From the NCBI GenBank assembly GCA_017656345.1, contig JACDNZ010000016.1, positions 1 through 47,771 on the forward strand: 47,771 bases of DNA, written 5' to 3'. The DNA comes from Thermosipho sp. (in: thermotogales). Lineage in GTDB: Bacteria; Thermotogota; Thermotogae; Thermotogales; Fervidobacteriaceae. Positions 98 to 43,995 of the stretch are shown piece after piece. Within the stretch, counting starts at the first letter, position 1. Each line of letters opens with the position of its first letter. A program made the position numbers and the translations under genes. Below the pieces are notes generated by a model that saw nothing but the letters and a program-made list of their open reading frames with translations, made no database searches and was not told where the DNA came from.

Positions 98-688
98 TTA
101 CACCTCGTTTTCTTCCAGCTTTTCTGTGTTTTTAATAATCTGTTTGAATATTTCAATTTTCTCAGATGCCTTTTCTACATGTTTTCCTTCGAGCAAGTCA
201 TATCTTATCGCATTTGAAAGACTTGATAAAATTTCTAGTAAATCGTCTATATCTTCACCTAATATTTTTTTGTCTTTCGACACTTCGTTAAATTTTTCAA
301 TGAATTTTCCAAATATTTTTAATACATCGATGGATGCAACCATTGAAAGTTTTTGATTAATCAGCTTTAATTTCACAATATCTTTTTTGTTTATCTCCTG
401 TTTTAAAAATATATCTTCAAGATATCTAAATAATTCATCGTATATATTCGCTTTTATCTCCAATATTTTTAAATTTTCTTCCTTTAATAACTCCACTTCG
501 GTTTGTCTATTTAAAAGAAGTGACGTAATTAAAATAGTAATTAATGTCCCCATAAGCGCTGCCAAAATTTCCTGAGAATAAGGAAATTCTAAATTTATAT
601 AATACAGCTCTCTAAATAGAAAATAAGTTACAATTGCAAGAGCAATACCTGAAATTGTGATTATCAAATTTTTCGTTTTAAGTGACAT
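98..688 (-). CDS. Hypothetical membrane-anchored coiled protein
   Basis: A 196-residue protein that I do not recognise. Two hydrophobic segments (about residues 8-27 and 38-59) make a membrane hairpin. They are followed by a roughly 130-residue charged, helix-rich cytoplasmic part with heptad-like Leu/Ile spacing. The start codon directly abuts the stop of the VanZ-family gene, with GGGGATGGG just upstream, so the two are co-transcribed and probably translationally coupled. As last gene of a trio with a polyprenyl-phosphate sugar transferase and a VanZ-like protein, it may act in envelope biogenesis, but only position supports that. No known catalytic motif was seen. Confidence 0.7.
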   Translation of the reverse strand: MSLKTKNLIITISGIALAIVTYFLFRELYYINLEFPYSQEILAALMGTLITILITSLLLNRQTEVELLKEENLKILEIKANIYDELFRYLEDIFLKQEINKKDIVKLKLINQKLSMVASIDVLKIFGKFIEKFNEVSKDKKILGEDIDDLLEILSSLSNAIRYDLLEGKHVEKASEKIEIFKQIIKNTEKLEENEV

Positions 689-1246
689 TTACCCATCCCC
701 ACTTTCTTTTTCCTTAATATTTTTTCTTTCAAATATAATAAAAATTATCCTGTATAAAATCACCAAAATCATACCAAATAAAACTCCTGAAATTATCCCT
801 GAAAGGTCAATGATCACATCATTCAATGAAGAACCCCTATTGTAGTATTGCTGCGTATATTCATCAATTACAGCTATGAGATTAGGAAAGGTTATTCCAA
901 CAATCGACGAAATAAATAAATTTTTCAGAATCTTATAAAATCCTATGAAACTCAAAAAACCTAATATGAAGTACAAGCCAAAATGAGCAGTTTTCCTCAC
1001 TAACATTTCAGCCGGGACATACTGTGTTTTAAACCACAGTTTTTTTAAATATAACTCAACTTTTCTAAAAAGTGCAGTATTAGAAAAATCAATTGCACTA
1101 TCTATCTCTTTTAAAATTTTTACAACAAAGCCTGATTGCTGAGAAGACACTACAGGGCTTCTCGATGAAAAATAAAAAATTAAAATTATCCAGGCTACTA
1201 TAAGCAAAAATATAATCAAAGCTTTGAAACTTTTTCCCTTATCCAT
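689..1246 (-). CDS. VanZ-family membrane protein
   Basis: A 185-residue integral membrane protein with about four hydrophobic segments. It carries the VanZ-family signatures RKTAHF (about 84-89), DEYTQ (about 128-132) and a DVIIDLSG-like stretch (about 142-149). VanZ-like proteins are linked to cell-envelope functions and teicoplanin tolerance, but the biochemical role is unknown. An in-frame ATG at 1264 gives a longer version. The ATG at 1246 is preferred because AGGAG (1253-1257) lies 6 bases before it, whereas that site would fall inside the coding region of the longer form. It overlaps the upstream transferase gene by 8 bases. Confidence 0.75.
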   Translation of the reverse strand: MDKGKSFKALIIFLLIVAWIILIFYFSSRSPVVSSQQSGFVVKILKEIDSAIDFSNTALFRKVELYLKKLWFKTQYVPAEMLVRKTAHFGLYFILGFLSFIGFYKILKNLFISSIVGITFPNLIAVIDEYTQQYYNRGSSLNDVIIDLSGIISGVLFGMILVILYRIIFIIFERKNIKEKESGDG

Positions 1247-2171
1247 TTTTAACTCCTGCATCATATCTCAATAAGTTTAATTTTAAGATCAAAATTAAAG
1301 CTAAAATTATTGTCAAAGATATTGATAAATATTTATTGTGCAAATAAAGTATGCCAAACAAACAGAAAAGTGCACTAATTAGAGCCATTACGAAGAAGGT
1401 TTTTCTTTTACTATTCAACCGCCTATACAATTTATCATAAATATGATCTCTATCACCAGAAAATGGTGATTTTTTTGCCAGTGTTCTTCGAATCATACTG
1501 GAAAAAATATCAACAAAAAATGGAAAAAGGATTATAAGAGAAGAAACTGTCTGAGATGCTCCTTTAGAAAAAGAAGAAATTATTGCTACTCCTAAAATTC
1601 CCCCAATAGTATAACTTCCCATATCACCCATAAATATTTTTGCAGGTGGGAAATTGTAAAAAAGGTAAGCCAACAACGAACCAATTAAAGCTATCAAAAA
1701 TACTTTATCATATGGAAAAGTGACTGTCCAAATAAGTCCAAAAGCTGCTATAGCTGATGTTACACCACAAATTCCATCCATACCATCCATCATATTCACT
1801 GAATTTATCAAAAATGCGTAAAATATTGTTGCTATAGCAATTTCTATTGGATTAGAAAGAAATCTGGTAGAAACCATATATCCTATTAAAAGCTCTATTC
1901 CCATTCTTAACCAGGGATTCAACGATTTTACATCATCATATAATCCCAAGACTCCTAAAATCAAAATATAAGCCTTTCTAAAGATACTTAATGGGGTAAA
2001 CAACAAAAAAGAAAGCATAAAAGCTACTCCTCCAAGGTAAGGAGTTGTTTTTTCATGCGTTTTCAATTTTTTGTCCGGGTGATCCACAATGTTAAACTTG
2101 AAAGCAATTTTCCTGAGAAACGGGATAATAATCAACGTAAATATGAATGAAAGCAAAAATGAATACAACAT
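1239..2171 (-). CDS. Polyprenyl-phosphate N-acetylhexosamine-1-phosphate transferase (MraY/WecA/TagO-like)
   Basis: A 310-residue polytopic protein of the glycosyltransferase family 4 / MraY-WecA superfamily, which moves a sugar-1-phosphate from a UDP-sugar to undecaprenyl phosphate at the inner membrane. Expected motifs are present: DHPDKKLKTH then PYLGG (about 30-48), the double Asp in GLYDDVKS (79-80), NMMDGMDG (126-133), MGDMGS with Asp183, and the RDHIYDKL loop (about 238-246) replacing the His-rich loop. The 310-residue length is nearer WecA/TagO than MraY, and no MurD/MurX neighbour is present, so a polymer-initiating transferase is more likely than MraY. GGAGG sits 6 bases before the ATG. 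A shorter paralogue with lost acidic residues lies at 38423-39286. Confidence 0.85.
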   Translation of the reverse strand: MLYSFLLSFIFTLIIIPFLRKIAFKFNIVDHPDKKLKTHEKTTPYLGGVAFMLSFLLFTPLSIFRKAYILILGVLGLYDDVKSLNPWLRMGIELLIGYMVSTRFLSNPIEIAIATIFYAFLINSVNMMDGMDGICGVTSAIAAFGLIWTVTFPYDKVFLIALIGSLLAYLFYNFPPAKIFMGDMGSYTIGGILGVAIISSFSKGASQTVSSLIILFPFFVDIFSSMIRRTLAKKSPFSGDRDHIYDKLYRRLNSKRKTFFVMALISALFCLFGILYLHNKYLSISLTIILALILILKLNLLRYDAGVKNG

Positions 2172-38422: not shown

Positions 38423-39286
38423 CTATAACCTAAATTTTCCGGGATAATAAAGTACAAATACAGTAAAAGCGATATAAAACAAATAAGAAATCCACGAAGA
38501 AACTAATCCAAAATATAACCATAAACCCACAATAAGATATATTCCAGAAATAGCCCACATATAATAAAGCATTTTTCTTTTGGCTTTAACAACACCGAGT
38601 ATCTTGAAACTCAAAGTACTTTGTTTTTTTCCAAGAATAGCCGGCAAAGCTTCAAGTAAAATAGGAGTTAAGACTATAAAAGATTGTAAAATACGGGTAA
38701 ATCCTCCTCTTGAAGAAGAGAATATACCCGCCACAATAATTCCCCCAATCAAATATTCACCAATTCTACCCAGCTGAATCCTTGCAGGTGGGAAGTTATA
38801 AAATGAAAAAGCAAATAAGGATCCTAATAAACTCAAGATAAGTATTTTATCAAAAGAACTGGTAACAAAAAAATAAAGACCAAAACCTGAAACCAACGAT
38901 AAAGAAACTCCTAAACCATCAAAATGATCAATATTTTGTAAAAGATAAATAATTACTATGGAAATAACTAAACCAACAGGTATATAATACAGTGGGAAAT
39001 ATTTATACGAAACCAGTAAAGTGGAAAACAAAACAATTAAATAATCAAATTTTATCCTTTTTGACTTTATGTCTTCGTACAAACCCAAAACCGCCAGAAT
39101 AGTCAAAAAAGTTTTAACCATTAAATCAAACGGTACAACCAAAATTATAGATAAAAAAATCCCCATTCCACCAAGATATGGAACTGTTTTCTCTTCTTTA
39201 GTTGTCAATTTATACTTCACAGCAAACTTACCAAATACAGGAATAGCTATTACCGATATAGCAAATGATATCAAAAAATATACCAT
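38423..39286 (-). CDS. MraY/WecA-like paralogue with lost catalytic residues
   Basis: A 287-residue polytopic membrane protein clearly related to the transferase at 1239-2171 (shared PYLGG, VLGLY-x-D-x-KS, GSL-AY/F-F-YNFPPA and IGEY-IGG patterns). Compared with it, the double Asp becomes Glu71-Asp72, NMMDGMDG becomes NIDHFDGLG, the key Asp183 of MGDMGS becomes Arg174 in LGRIGEY, and the RDHIY loop is absent. Catalysis is therefore unlikely; it may bind lipid or regulate the active paralogue. The stop is followed by the largest intergenic gap. GGGAGG lies 6 bases before the ATG. Confidence 0.82.
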   Translation of the reverse strand: MVYFLISFAISVIAIPVFGKFAVKYKLTTKEEKTVPYLGGMGIFLSIILVVPFDLMVKTFLTILAVLGLYEDIKSKRIKFDYLIVLFSTLLVSYKYFPLYYIPVGLVISIVIIYLLQNIDHFDGLGVSLSLVSGFGLYFFVTSSFDKILILSLLGSLFAFSFYNFPPARIQLGRIGEYLIGGIIVAGIFSSSRGGFTRILQSFIVLTPILLEALPAILGKKQSTLSFKILGVVKAKRKMLYYMWAISGIYLIVGLWLYFGLVSSWISYLFYIAFTVFVLYYPGKFRL

Positions 39287-39303
39287 TTCAAACCTCCCTA
39301 AAA

Positions 39304-39314: not shown

Positions 39315-39343
39315 AAAAAACCTGGCTCTATACGAGCCAGGCT
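39315..39343 (-). terminator. Terminator of the secreted GH57 gene
   Basis: Stem CCTGGCTC (39321-39328) with GAGCCAGG (39334-39341), loop TATAC, then six T on the minus strand (complement of 39315-39320). Confidence 0.92.
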
Positions 39344-39355
39344 TGAAAAATCAAA

Positions 39356-42300
39356 CTATTTTATTTTCAAAGGTAAAACAGTTGCATACTCTTTGCCAGG
39401 GATGTAAGAAGACAAAACAGTTTTCTGATCATAACCTTCTGGAACTAGAATATCTACAACGTATGGCGCCATATCTTTTGAATCAGTTGGATAACCACCC
39501 AAAGTCCACTGACCCGGATTTGGAGTTACTGGTCTGAAATTATCGGGACCATAACCATCTTGACTTCCAACAAGAATATACGCAAAAATTCCATTTGAAA
39601 TATCCAGATATTTTTTGCTGATTATTACATTAATTGTTTTTTCACCGGTATCAGCTTCAACTCTCACGGCTTCTGGAATTTCTTCTCCATCACTGGTTGC
39701 AAAAAATTGTCCATATGAAGGCCAACCAGCTACTTTTATAAAGTAATCCCAAGGATGGTTTTTATCAAATTGAACTCTTGCGCCTTCATTATATGTATCT
39801 GTTCTTCCGCCTTCCTTTGTGTCAAGGTATATGTTGATCAATTGATGTGAAAATCCTTTTGGAGCACCCCAAGGATTGGTCATTTCAGCAAATTTTATCT
39901 GGAATATGTATGATTCTTCATTTTCAAGTACAACAACATCAGTCATGTCAAATAAGCCTTTATAAGGTTTAAATGCTGGATCTTTTGGATAAGAATAAGT
40001 ACCTGGTCCATATTCATCTCCCAGAGGATCTTTAAATATTTTTAATATATCACCCGTAACTGCCGCAGGAATTATAACATTAATTGGTCCATAGTTTGGT
40101 GCAAAATCTTCATCCTTTCTATCTTTTGAAACCACAACTGCTATATTAAATTCCTGACCTGATTTTACATTAATTAAATCATAAGGTATTTCCATTTCTA
40201 CGATATCTCCAACAAATCCTTTAACATTACCTGTCGTTAAAATCCATTTATCAGTTCCTGAAGCTTTGTAAAAACTTACCTTTTGCCTCTTAGGCCATGT
40301 TTTTAAATTTATTGCAAATCTATGGGACAGAGCAAATCCAAGTGGAGTAACTTTATCTTTTGAATAGTACGTCTTTGCATTAAATTTATTTGCAGTTGGA
40401 CTATCAGCATACACTTCAACTTTTATATCCTCGCCCAGATACTCTGTTGCAGGTTTATCAAGAATAATTCCCACATATACTCCTGAATCTCCTCTACCTA
40501 CATATACATATCTTAAAAGGTTTTCGTCCAATGAATCATCAAACATAGCTGTAGTTTTCTCTACTTCATCTAATTTTCCATTGAATTCATATTCAATCTT
40601 CTTAATAACCCCAGAAGTTGGTGGAGCAGGTTTTTTGTTCGGGATATATAGATAACTTGGTATCTCAGTATAACCAGCCATTTCATACATCTTTATTAAA
40701 AGATTCTTGAACTGTTGATCAAACAATACCTCATTGTTACCCGCATCCTGATCAGCTCCATACCACCAGAACCAGTCGCTTCCTTCAGCTGCATACAAGA
40801 CATGTCTTGCCAGCTCGTTTTCATTTATATTTATCTTACTAAGTAGAATTTCTCTTGCTTTAGCCAATCTATCCCAAGCTTCATTTTCTTCTTTTTCACC
40901 AATCCACGTATCTAAAGTACCACCGGCCCATGAACCCTTAGCTAATGTCTCTAATTCATTCTTAACTCCATATTTTTCTAAATATTCACTCGGTGTTACA
41001 AGATTAATTAAAGGATCTTTTGAAAGTTCTTTATAAAGCAATTTTCTAAAGTCATTTCCGTTGTTGGGATAATGTTCCCATGCATTTTCTCCATCCAGGG
41101 CAACAGTTACTATTAAATCCCCTGTCGTATTTAATTTTTGATACTCATGAAGAGTATTAATAAAATCTTTAACTGCTGCTTCTGCGTCCATCTGCGAATA
41201 TTTAAAGCTAATTCTATTTGAAAGATCCGTGTCTCTAAAGAACACAACAATCTCTTTACCATTCACTTTCACTTTATACGGTCTAAACAGATTTTCTATT
41301 TCTCCTGTGTTTACACCACTTTTTTGTAAAATATCTTTATCTGTTACTATCCACTTTACATTATTTTCAGCTATTAATCCTGCTACTTCTAAAGAAACTG
41401 CCTGTTCAGATGGCCACATCCCTTCTGGCCTTTTTCCAAATATCTGCTTAAAGTATTCCAACCCTTCTTTAATCTGACCATTTGCATCTTCAACCCAACC
41501 CTTGTCAACAAGTATTGGAAGTATTGGATGATAGAAAGGTGTTGTTGTAATCTCTATTTTTCCCTCTTCCCAGAGCTTTTTATATTTATCTACAATTGTT
41601 GATAAAAGCTTTTTATGATAATCCAATACATATATGAGATCGTCTCTCGTATAATGTTCCTTATCAAGCAACTTGCTCAGTCTTTCATCTGCTTTTATAT
41701 ATTCAATGTTAATCCAGTAAAGATTCCAACATACTTTTAAATCCAAAATATCTTGATCGGAGAATTCTACACCCGATACTTTCATTTCCATAAGTTCTTT
41801 ATACCTTTTGTGAGCGTTTACAAACCGTGGATTTATATCAAAAAAGTGATCAAGAATGAATTGTTTTTCTTCTTTTGTAAGTTCATCCTCATTTTTCATT
41901 GAAAGTCTCTGATATTCATCAATTGATCCCTTTAAGTAATCCTGTATCTGGAGCAATAAGCTTGGAACAATATTAAATGTTACTTTTCCATTTTCAAGAT
42001 AATCAGCAACCAGATCTGCCATGTAAGGATAGTCATTTACCCCATGAGCTCTAACCCATGGCATCATGTATTTATCAGATCCAGGAATTTTGTATAATGG
42101 CTGATGATGATGCCAAATAAGTGCAACATTAAGAGGTTGTGCTTCACCTTTTTCTTCAACATCTTTTAATCCAACTGTTAATTGTCCATCTTTTTCAAAA
42201 ACTTCAAAATATCCATTCTTTCCTCCAAAACCATCATCAACAAATGCAGGAGCATTGGGATCTGTAACCCACTTTTCTCCATTAATTACAAATTTATACT

Positions 42301-42895
42301 CATACGAACCCTCATCTAATTCAAGTACCGCTTCCCACCAACCATCACCAATATCGTAACATTCATTTGCTGATGAATCCCAGCTGTTAAAATTACCCGC
42401 AATTGTCACATATTCAGCATCTTCTGCAAAAAACCTTATCACTACAAAATTTTCCTCATCAACAAAAAATTTCTCGGGATCAAAATTTTCATTAACTTCA
42501 ATTTCCTTCGTTTTTTCCTCAGTTTTTTGACCACCAGCAGCTACAATTAATAATTTTCCATCCTTTTCAACCAGTGAAAAAATGCCATTATACCCTCCAA
42601 AACCATCGTCCACATATCCAGGAGCTTCGGGATCTTCTTTCCAGTTTTTACCTTCAATCACATATTTATACTGATATGTACCTGGTTCCAAATCTAAAGT
42701 TACTTTCCACACATCGCCTTCTTTTTTCATAGCAAGCCCTGTAGGATTCCAGTTATTAAAAGTACCAGCAAGATAGACAACTTTCGCATCTAAAGCTTCC
42801 TTAAATGTGAAAACAACTTTTCCGTTCTCCACATAAACAGCTGAAAAAACTAGCAATCCAGCTAAAAGCAAATACAAAATCAAAAGTTTCTTCAT
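39356..42895 (-). CDS. Secreted GH57 amylopullulanase-like enzyme with two starch-binding-like domains
   Basis: A 1179-residue exported enzyme. Signal peptide about 1-20, then two CBM48/AMPK-like domains (about 25-110 and 148-235, with GTFNNWN and GNFNSWD), then the GH57 domain from WHHHQPLY (261-268), with predicted nucleophile Glu497 in MWPSEQ and acid/base Asp601 in ALDGENAWE. The C-terminal ~230 residues (DPLGDEYGPGTYSYP onward) match the glucodextranase-C-like domain also found in the GH13 enzyme at 12786. An ATG at 42928 is possible, but ATG 42895 has AGGGGG 8 bases upstream and begins a proper signal peptide. Likely degrades starch or pullulan outside the cytoplasm. Confidence 0.9.
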   Translation of the reverse strand: MKKLLILYLLLAGLLVFSAVYVENGKVVFTFKEALDAKVVYLAGTFNNWNPTGLAMKKEGDVWKVTLDLEPGTYQYKYVIEGKNWKEDPEAPGYVDDGFGGYNGIFSLVEKDGKLLIVAAGGQKTEEKTKEIEVNENFDPEKFFVDEENFVVIRFFAEDAEYVTIAGNFNSWDSSANECYDIGDGWWEAVLELDEGSYEYKFVINGEKWVTDPNAPAFVDDGFGGKNGYFEVFEKDGQLTVGLKDVEEKGEAQPLNVALIWHHHQPLYKIPGSDKYMMPWVRAHGVNDYPYMADLVADYLENGKVTFNIVPSLLLQIQDYLKGSIDEYQRLSMKNEDELTKEEKQFILDHFFDINPRFVNAHKRYKELMEMKVSGVEFSDQDILDLKVCWNLYWINIEYIKADERLSKLLDKEHYTRDDLIYVLDYHKKLLSTIVDKYKKLWEEGKIEITTTPFYHPILPILVDKGWVEDANGQIKEGLEYFKQIFGKRPEGMWPSEQAVSLEVAGLIAENNVKWIVTDKDILQKSGVNTGEIENLFRPYKVKVNGKEIVVFFRDTDLSNRISFKYSQMDAEAAVKDFINTLHEYQKLNTTGDLIVTVALDGENAWEHYPNNGNDFRKLLYKELSKDPLINLVTPSEYLEKYGVKNELETLAKGSWAGGTLDTWIGEKEENEAWDRLAKAREILLSKININENELARHVLYAAEGSDWFWWYGADQDAGNNEVLFDQQFKNLLIKMYEMAGYTEIPSYLYIPNKKPAPPTSGVIKKIEYEFNGKLDEVEKTTAMFDDSLDENLLRYVYVGRGDSGVYVGIILDKPATEYLGEDIKVEVYADSPTANKFNAKTYYSKDKVTPLGFALSHRFAINLKTWPKRQKVSFYKASGTDKWILTTGNVKGFVGDIVEMEIPYDLINVKSGQEFNIAVVVSKDRKDEDFAPNYGPINVIIPAAVTGDILKIFKDPLGDEYGPGTYSYPKDPAFKPYKGLFDMTDVVVLENEESYIFQIKFAEMTNPWGAPKGFSHQLINIYLDTKEGGRTDTYNEGARVQFDKNHPWDYFIKVAGWPSYGQFFATSDGEEIPEAVRVEADTGEKTINVIISKKYLDISNGIFAYILVGSQDGYGPDNFRPVTPNPGQWTLGGYPTDSKDMAPYVVDILVPEGYDQKTVLSSYIPGKEYATVLPLKIK

Positions 42896-42943
42896 ATCTT
42901 TTACCCCCTTTTCTGGAATCATTTCCACAAATATTATACTAAA

Positions 42944-42985: not shown

Positions 42986-43321
42986 TTATTCTTTCTCTAA
43001 CCTATTCAAATCTGTTTTTCTTTTTGATTCAACTATCATCATGCTCAATGCTAATGTCAGAGAGAGGGTAGCAAAACCAATTACTATGGAAGTGATAATA
43101 ACTGCTTGTGGGAAGGGGTCAACATAATTTAAAATTCCAGGTGTATAAATAGGATAGTAATTTCCTTTTTTTGAAGCAATTATTACAAAAAGCATAATAA
43201 CCCCGGTATTTAAAATATCAAGAGCAATAATTTTGGAAATAATATGTTTTTTAAACAGCAAACCATACATTGATAAAACAATTATTATTATTGGCGCTAG
43301 AAAATCTATATTTTTTAACAC
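42986..43321 (-). CDS. MrpC/NuoK-like antiporter subunit
   Basis: A 111-residue membrane protein with three predicted helices. The hallmark DPFPQAVIITSIVIG (68-82) matches the DPLPQALVLTAIVI motif of MrpC (MnhC) and is related to NuoK. It is a small subunit of cation/proton antiporter or complex-I-like modules. It is last in a gene order MrpD-like, ComB-like, MrpC-like, overlapping comB by 7 bases. No MrpA, B, E, F or G gene is visible nearby. Confidence 0.87.
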   Translation of the reverse strand: MLKNIDFLAPIIIIVLSMYGLLFKKHIISKIIALDILNTGVIMLFVIIASKKGNYYPIYTPGILNYVDPFPQAVIITSIVIGFATLSLTLALSMMIVESKRKTDLNRLEKE

Positions 43322-43995
43322 ATTTTCACCCCATAAAATGAATCACCAATCATTTGAGGAATAATATTAAAAATTGAAAGCTTTTTACAAAAACTAATAT
43401 CATCCTCAAAACCATTTTTTATTAGTTTTTCCACATGACTTCCTTTAAACTCCAGGTTATTTCCTTTAAAAAATTCTAAAGAAATAAGTACGCTATCAAG
43501 CAGATCATATCTTCCATATTGTACAAGTTTATGCACAAGCATTCCTGCAAATAATGTATCTTCATATGATATTTTCCCATTATTCCCTGAACACCAAATT
43601 ATAATATTTTCTTCATCTTTAATGTAATCATACAAATATTCAAAATTCAAAAATGCACCTATCATAACCTTTTTTGAATATTTTCTTGCCTTTTCAATTG
43701 TTTTAGTACCATTCGAGGTGGTTAGTACTATTTTTTTCCCGGCTACATCAAAAAATTCAAGAGGTGAATTTCCTTTATCAAATCCACTTATTTTTACCGT
43801 ATTTCGTTCACCACAAATAATATATCCTTCTTTTTTTAGTATTTTTGCTTCTTTTATACTTTTAACCGTCTTTACAAGTTGTGCACCATTTCCTAAAGCC
43901 GTAATTACAACTGATCCTGCTCTGAGAATATCTACAACGACTGAAGTACCTGTAATTGCAGGTTTTTCTCTGTATGTAAACAAAACTTCTATCAT
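43315..43995 (-). CDS. ComB-family 2-phosphosulfolactate phosphatase-like protein
   Basis: A 226-residue ComB-family protein. Conserved blocks are VVVDILRAGSVV (19-30), CGERNTVKISGFDKGNSPLE (61-80) and LTTSNGTKTI (91-100), as in 2-phosphosulfolactate phosphatase of coenzyme M synthesis in methanogens. Bacterial ComB homologues have unknown substrates, and no comA/comC partner is here. It is tucked between two antiporter subunit genes, overlapping the MrpD-like gene by 4 bases and the MrpC-like gene by 7, which strongly suggests co-translation with them. Confidence 0.85.
   Translation of the reverse strand: MIEVLFTYREKPAITGTSVVVDILRAGSVVITALGNGAQLVKTVKSIKEAKILKKEGYIICGERNTVKISGFDKGNSPLEFFDVAGKKIVLTTSNGTKTIEKARKYSKKVMIGAFLNFEYLYDYIKDEENIIIWCSGNNGKISYEDTLFAGMLVHKLVQYGRYDLLDSVLISLEFFKGNNLEFKGSHVEKLIKNGFEDDISFCKKLSIFNIIPQMIGDSFYGVKMC

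Follow-up and report, generated by a model that had tools for sequence, protein, structure and literature searches.

A WecA/MraY-type membrane protein of Thermosipho that has lost catalytic residues and is retained as a predicted pseudoenzyme under purifying selection

The question raised by this locus is why a Thermosipho genome retains, in addition to a WecA-type enzyme with complete catalytic motifs (Y), a paralogue whose catalytic residues are lost (X). Enzymes of this superfamily (PNPT) start many undecaprenyl-phosphate-linked glycan pathways, and one of them, MraY, is an antibiotic target. Both genes are located in the window, i.e. the whole 47,771-nucleotide stretch of DNA that was analysed, with the following neighbouring features:

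38423..39286, minus strand: X, WecA/MraY-type (PNPT, PF00953) protein of 287 aa with lost catalytic residues, intact ORF
39293..39298, minus strand: ribosome-binding site of X (GGGAGG), just upstream of its start
39315..39342, minus strand: terminator-like hairpin and T-run in the interval between the amylopullulanase gene and X, present in all four genomes carrying X
39356..42928, minus strand: amylopullulanase-like gene, positional marker preceding X
1239..2171, minus strand: Y, paralogue in which every catalytic motif is intact (YDDVK, NMMDGMDG, MGDMGS, RDHIY)
689..1264, minus strand: VanZ-like gene of the Y operon, overlapping the end of Y
98..688, minus strand: 196-aa protein encoded in the Y operon, without a Pfam family

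In a profile search X scored 39.3 bits against PF00953 (curated Pfam cut-off 27), and this cut-off was exceeded by all four X orthologues; none was reached in the NCBIfam profile search with X. An earlier note on this DNA had described X as a full-length homologue of Y, and the alignment agrees with this description (33% identity over 273 aa, E 5e-33). The source genome (G000) encodes four PF00953 proteins, namely MraY and its neighbour (contig C14), Y and X.

A single-sequence search of the genome contigs with X gave no match, while a search with a four-row alignment matched two sister Thermosipho sp. MAGs, each contributing an X orthologue of genus g1. X is present in all four known genomes of this genus (G000-G003), the orthologues in G001-G003 sharing 56-58% identity with it. 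Where the contig allows, these three genomes also share the locus, with the amylopullulanase gene on one side and ABC-ATPase and sugar-kinase genes on the other. GGAGG likewise precedes X in the three orthologues, and the hairpin is found at the same position in all four genomes with a different sequence and the ribosome-binding site of X directly behind it (L044, L045, L046 and the window). In G001 and G003 a convergent gene overlaps X at its 3' end (L044:7841-8479, L045:6533-7168); in G001 its Pfam assignment is haemolysin-III-like, and it is absent from the window.

The motifs of X were compared column by column with those of 33 WecA-type homologues including Y, all of them catalytic. The columns lost in X are near-invariant among these active homologues, and the pattern of losses is fixed in the four X orthologues and absent from every aligned active homologue. 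The affected segments are:

39179..39208, minus strand: L27-P36, shortened first cytoplasmic loop in which PDxxLKxH of the active enzymes is deleted
39071..39076, minus strand: E71-D72, remnant of DD (MraY D117/D118; Y D79/D80), first Asp replaced by Glu in 4/4 orthologues
38915..38938, minus strand: Q117-G124 (QNIDHFDG), remnant of NxxDGxDG that retains both Asp but not the Asn or the first Gly
38753..38773, minus strand: L172-Y178 (LGRIGEY), remnant of MGDxGSY, Mg2+-ligand Asp lost
38603..38629, minus strand: K220-K228, where the GDRDHIYDK loop with the catalytic His is deleted

Work on A. aeolicus MraY describes D117, D118 and D265 as critical for activity and D265 as the Mg2+ ligand (PMC6606608, PMC4790310), an essential residue that coordinates the metal (PMC6606608). 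The position of this ligand (Y D183) is occupied by R174 in X and by R, E, K and K across the four orthologues, so that the catalytic Asp is missing from each and no substitute ligand is conserved there. The His of the RDH/HHH loop (Y H243) is absent together with the whole loop in all four. The second Asp of the DD motif is retained (Y D80, X D72); with ED in every orthologue, none has the complete motif. In NxxDGxDG the Asn (Y N126) is replaced by Gln, Arg, Lys and Lys (Q117 in X) and the first Gly (Y G130) by His or Asn (H121 in X), while both Asp (Y D129 and D132) are present as D120 and D123, again leaving the motif incomplete in all four.

The earlier note had read these losses as DD to ED, MGDMGS to LGRIGEY (Asp183 to Arg174) and removal of the RDHIY loop, all three of which the alignment and the orthologues bear out. 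Its pairing of NMMDGMDG with NIDHFDGLG was out of register by comparison with the aligned stretch QNIDHFDG. The general claim of active-site loss thus holds for D117 (Glu), D265 (Arg), the Asn and the RDH loop, and does not hold for D118 and the two Asp of NxxDGxDG. Two further losses had escaped that note: the deletion in the first cytoplasmic loop and the loss of the residue corresponding to Y R89, an Arg at a position where MraY has a conserved Lys. As the four orthologues agree, an alignment artefact was rejected as the source of the losses. E71, D72, K74, D120, D123, Q171 and E212 are fixed among the X orthologues, the first five of them despite saturation at synonymous sites; no His or Cys has newly become fixed.

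All four X copies are dead in the same way and none carries a frameshift or an internal stop. The M0 codon model for X in the four genomes gave an omega of 0.027 (LRT 499 against omega=1), of which the direction alone is reliable as dS is saturated. This omega is comparable to that of the neighbouring genes and of MraY. Total dN of X exceeds that of MraY and Y roughly twofold and comes closer to the value of a neighbouring gene (window 43315-43995), and segment 151-195 is approximately 70% invariant. Intact reading frames and purifying selection led us to reject pseudogene status. The dN/dS analysis had been proposed in the earlier note, which had also stressed the intact frame and named decay of the orthologues as evidence against its view; no such decay was found. 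X combines an intact ORF, purifying selection and missing catalytic residues, the features of a selected pseudoenzyme, and its proposed pseudoenzyme status is well supported by the variable Mg2+-ligand position, the four unbroken ORFs and the low omega. Judged by sequence, phylogeny and selection, X is a predicted pseudoenzyme, and it probably performs a non-catalytic job that has so far not been described.

In the tree the sister of X is the catalytic single copy of G006 (support 96/90), and the stem branch leading to X is long (1.02 changes per site). Y belongs to a different clade, together with genus g5 and one copy of G011. The gene of the active G006 enzyme lies downstream of the amylopullulanase orthologue with three genes between them. 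Trees of the ligase-like protein described below and of MraY group g1 with g5 and place G006 outside. The sister relationship, the shared position next to the amylopullulanase gene and these two trees together suggest that X is a vertically inherited copy that was lost in g5. X is absent from genus g5, and in G010 of this genus the amylopullulanase gene is present with no X remnant beside it. An AU test of 'X plus Y-type' also shut out the dead g5 rows and therefore carries no weight on the relation of X to Y. On the most plausible reading X is the native copy, still at its ancestral locus, and a Y-type enzyme would have taken over its chemistry.

A Y-type enzyme accompanies X in all four X genomes, at a distance of 33-41 kb where one contig holds both, and a homologue of the 196-aa protein is encoded near Y in G001, G002 and G007. 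X is in an operon with neither Y nor the ligase gene.

Catalytic residues have been lost independently in three further lineages, represented by G011 (L013), G007 and G012 of genus g5 (L043, L040) and G025 (L033), in each case with intact ORFs. The dead copy of G011 carries K, E and S at the Asn, Gly and Mg2+-ligand positions and has lost the RDH loop while keeping DD; in the g5 copies both Asp of NxxDGxDG are lost; in G025 DD is changed to LE and the Mg2+-ligand Asp to Glu, and the DHFY loop is kept. A single origin of all dead copies was rejected (AU 2e-60), as was a clade uniting X with the g5 dead copies (AU 0.0009). The dead g5 pair showed an omega of 0.27-0.33 compared to 0.07-0.09 for its active twin, which makes decay possible there. 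Elsewhere in the phylum, 79 additional members of the family (MraY among them) showed no loss comparable to that of X; the milder changes seen in this set are described below.

Wherever a genome of the family was found to hold two WecA-type copies in addition to the mraY-linked one (G000-G003, G007, G011, G012), one of the two is active and the other dead. Besides its dead copy G025 encodes only MraY and no second WecA-type protein, so that regulating an active twin fails as a general explanation; it also has a PF02397 initiating enzyme, as do 11 of 12 genomes tested.

Three side observations concern other members of the family. The dead copy of G007 is located within an active Y-type operon, between the gene of the 196-aa type and the VanZ-like gene (L043:5678-8664). 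In MraY of three f5 genera of Thermotogota, D118 is replaced by Gly (DG for DD) with the other motifs canonical (L214:307-1257, L219:248-1195, L220:1-688). The PF00953 paralogue directly following mraY has MGE for MGD (D265 to E) in g1 and g5, and GD in G006 and g3 (L005:6609-7481 on contig C14 of G000; second ORFs of L102, L103, L105 and L106).

In G004, G006, G011, G015, G017, G025 and G031 the gene after the WecA-like one encodes a protein of approximately 1,040-1,110 aa, which in G006 and G025 contains a Wzy_C (O-antigen ligase) domain; in G006, G011, G025 and G031 the WecA-like gene adjoins this O-antigen-ligase-like gene. The ligase-like gene is kept unlinked in g1 (G000-G003) and g5, and G009 yielded neither a ligase-like gene nor a WecA-like match. 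The WecA-like gene and the large Wzy_C gene appear as an ancient adjacent pair in Thermotogales (L126:8905-13041 in G025, L127:9198-13335 in G031, L128, L129, L047). The ligase-like neighbour ties the WecA-like family to surface-glycan assembly, in which X itself may have a role.

We lean towards the explanation that X is a PNPT pseudoenzyme selected for a non-catalytic function in the membrane, where it would contribute, together with a putative partner, to the initiation or ligation of glycans. X, read as the native WecA/TagO-like enzyme of the lineage and still at its ancestral locus, has lost its Mg2+ site and substrate loops, with the membrane core remaining under purifying selection and a second PNPT enzyme of the Y type presumably now performing the transferase chemistry. 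Most likely it would serve undecaprenyl-phosphate-dependent glycan assembly as a membrane partner without catalysis of its own and tune the initiation of this process. X may bind the carrier or a lipid-linked intermediate at a vestigial pocket formed by E71-D72-K74 and D120-D123, or it may pair with Y, with MraY or with the O-antigen-ligase-like protein encoded elsewhere. Lipid-carrier binding, scaffolding and regulation of the active transferase, as proposed in the earlier note, are candidate roles of this kind, and the position aligned with the conserved Lys of MraY is not conserved in X. As genus g5 lacks X, such a role would be dispensable there.

A specific form of this explanation, in which X pairs with Y or MraY in a heterodimer and acts on it allosterically or as a dominant negative, is possible yet tentative. 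MraY is a dimer (PMC4790310), in EpsW-EpsZ a partner regulates, by way of dimerisation, an initiating transferase from a different superfamily (PMC12802240), and Y occurs in all four genomes with X; however, X is closer to the G006 enzyme than to Y, is encoded far from Y where one contig holds both, and the model is inapplicable to G025 unless MraY were the partner. We regard as similarly speculative the broader idea that, in Thermotogales, WecA-type proteins also do a non-catalytic job that might be linked to the ligase neighbour. This job would have preserved the protein after catalysis was lost on four or more occasions, in the case of G025 with no second WecA-type copy present. It is doubtful that X is a neofunctionalised enzyme that would use E71, D72, D120, D123, E212 and the new Q171 in another polyprenyl-phosphate reaction. 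Fixation of these residues and of K74, the replaceability of Asp by Glu in some metal sites and the long stem branch would suit such an enzyme, but its Mg2+-ligand position is variable, both substrate loops are gone, E212 is Glu in MraY as well, and no His or Cys was gained.

It is unlikely that X is an ex-enzyme in slow decay, a remnant under relaxed selection after takeover by the Y type with its frame still unbroken. Neutral drift would have left stops, whereas X is intact in four genomes despite saturated synonymous divergence, its omega is far below 1 and its segment 151-195 is largely invariant. These data outweigh the presence of a Y-type enzyme in every X genome, the faster divergence of X than of its neighbours, the g5 genomes devoid of X and the relaxed omega of the dead g5 copy. 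Slow decay is therefore already disfavoured for X, while it is a live reading for the g5 and G011 copies. Very improbable is a normal PNPT reaction carried out by X with a rearranged site: one Asp of DD and both of NxxDGxDG are kept, but three of the four orthologues have Lys or Arg in place of the essential D265 (PMC6606608), and the loop with the catalytic His is deleted. A selected, repeatedly evolved dead PNPT branch, if true, would be a natural loss-of-function series showing which parts of the protein are needed without the chemistry, and would suggest that the committed step in making surface glycans involves a non-catalytic function or a regulatory partner that has gone unrecognised.

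The open-access papers searched contained no report of a pseudoenzyme belonging to the WecA/MraY superfamily. AlphaFold2 modelling of X from four sequences (X, two orthologues and Y) was of low confidence (pLDDT 46.5), and a profile of X only matched no PNPT structure in the PDB at E<=1. An alignment of X with active homologues matched MraY structures of the same superfamily (5jnq, E 1.3e-18; 4j72, E 1.1e-10); compared to MraY, the DDD motif is broken and the HHH motif absent in X. With the WecA/TagO-type enzymes, i.e. the G006 single copy and Y, X shares a membrane core alignable over its full length and the motifs PYLGG, YNFPPxRI and GxxGxY, and with the G006 enzyme also the genomic position. 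In contrast to these enzymes X lacks the Mg2+-ligand Asp, the RDH and PDxxLKxH loops and the Asn of NxxDGxDG, and has Glu for the first Asp of DD. The dead copies of G011, G007/G012 and G025 have lost key positions as X has (Asn to Lys or Gln, the Mg2+-ligand Asp) from separate origins in the tree. Like pseudoenzymes in general, X has a conserved family core devoid of catalytic residues that is maintained under selection.
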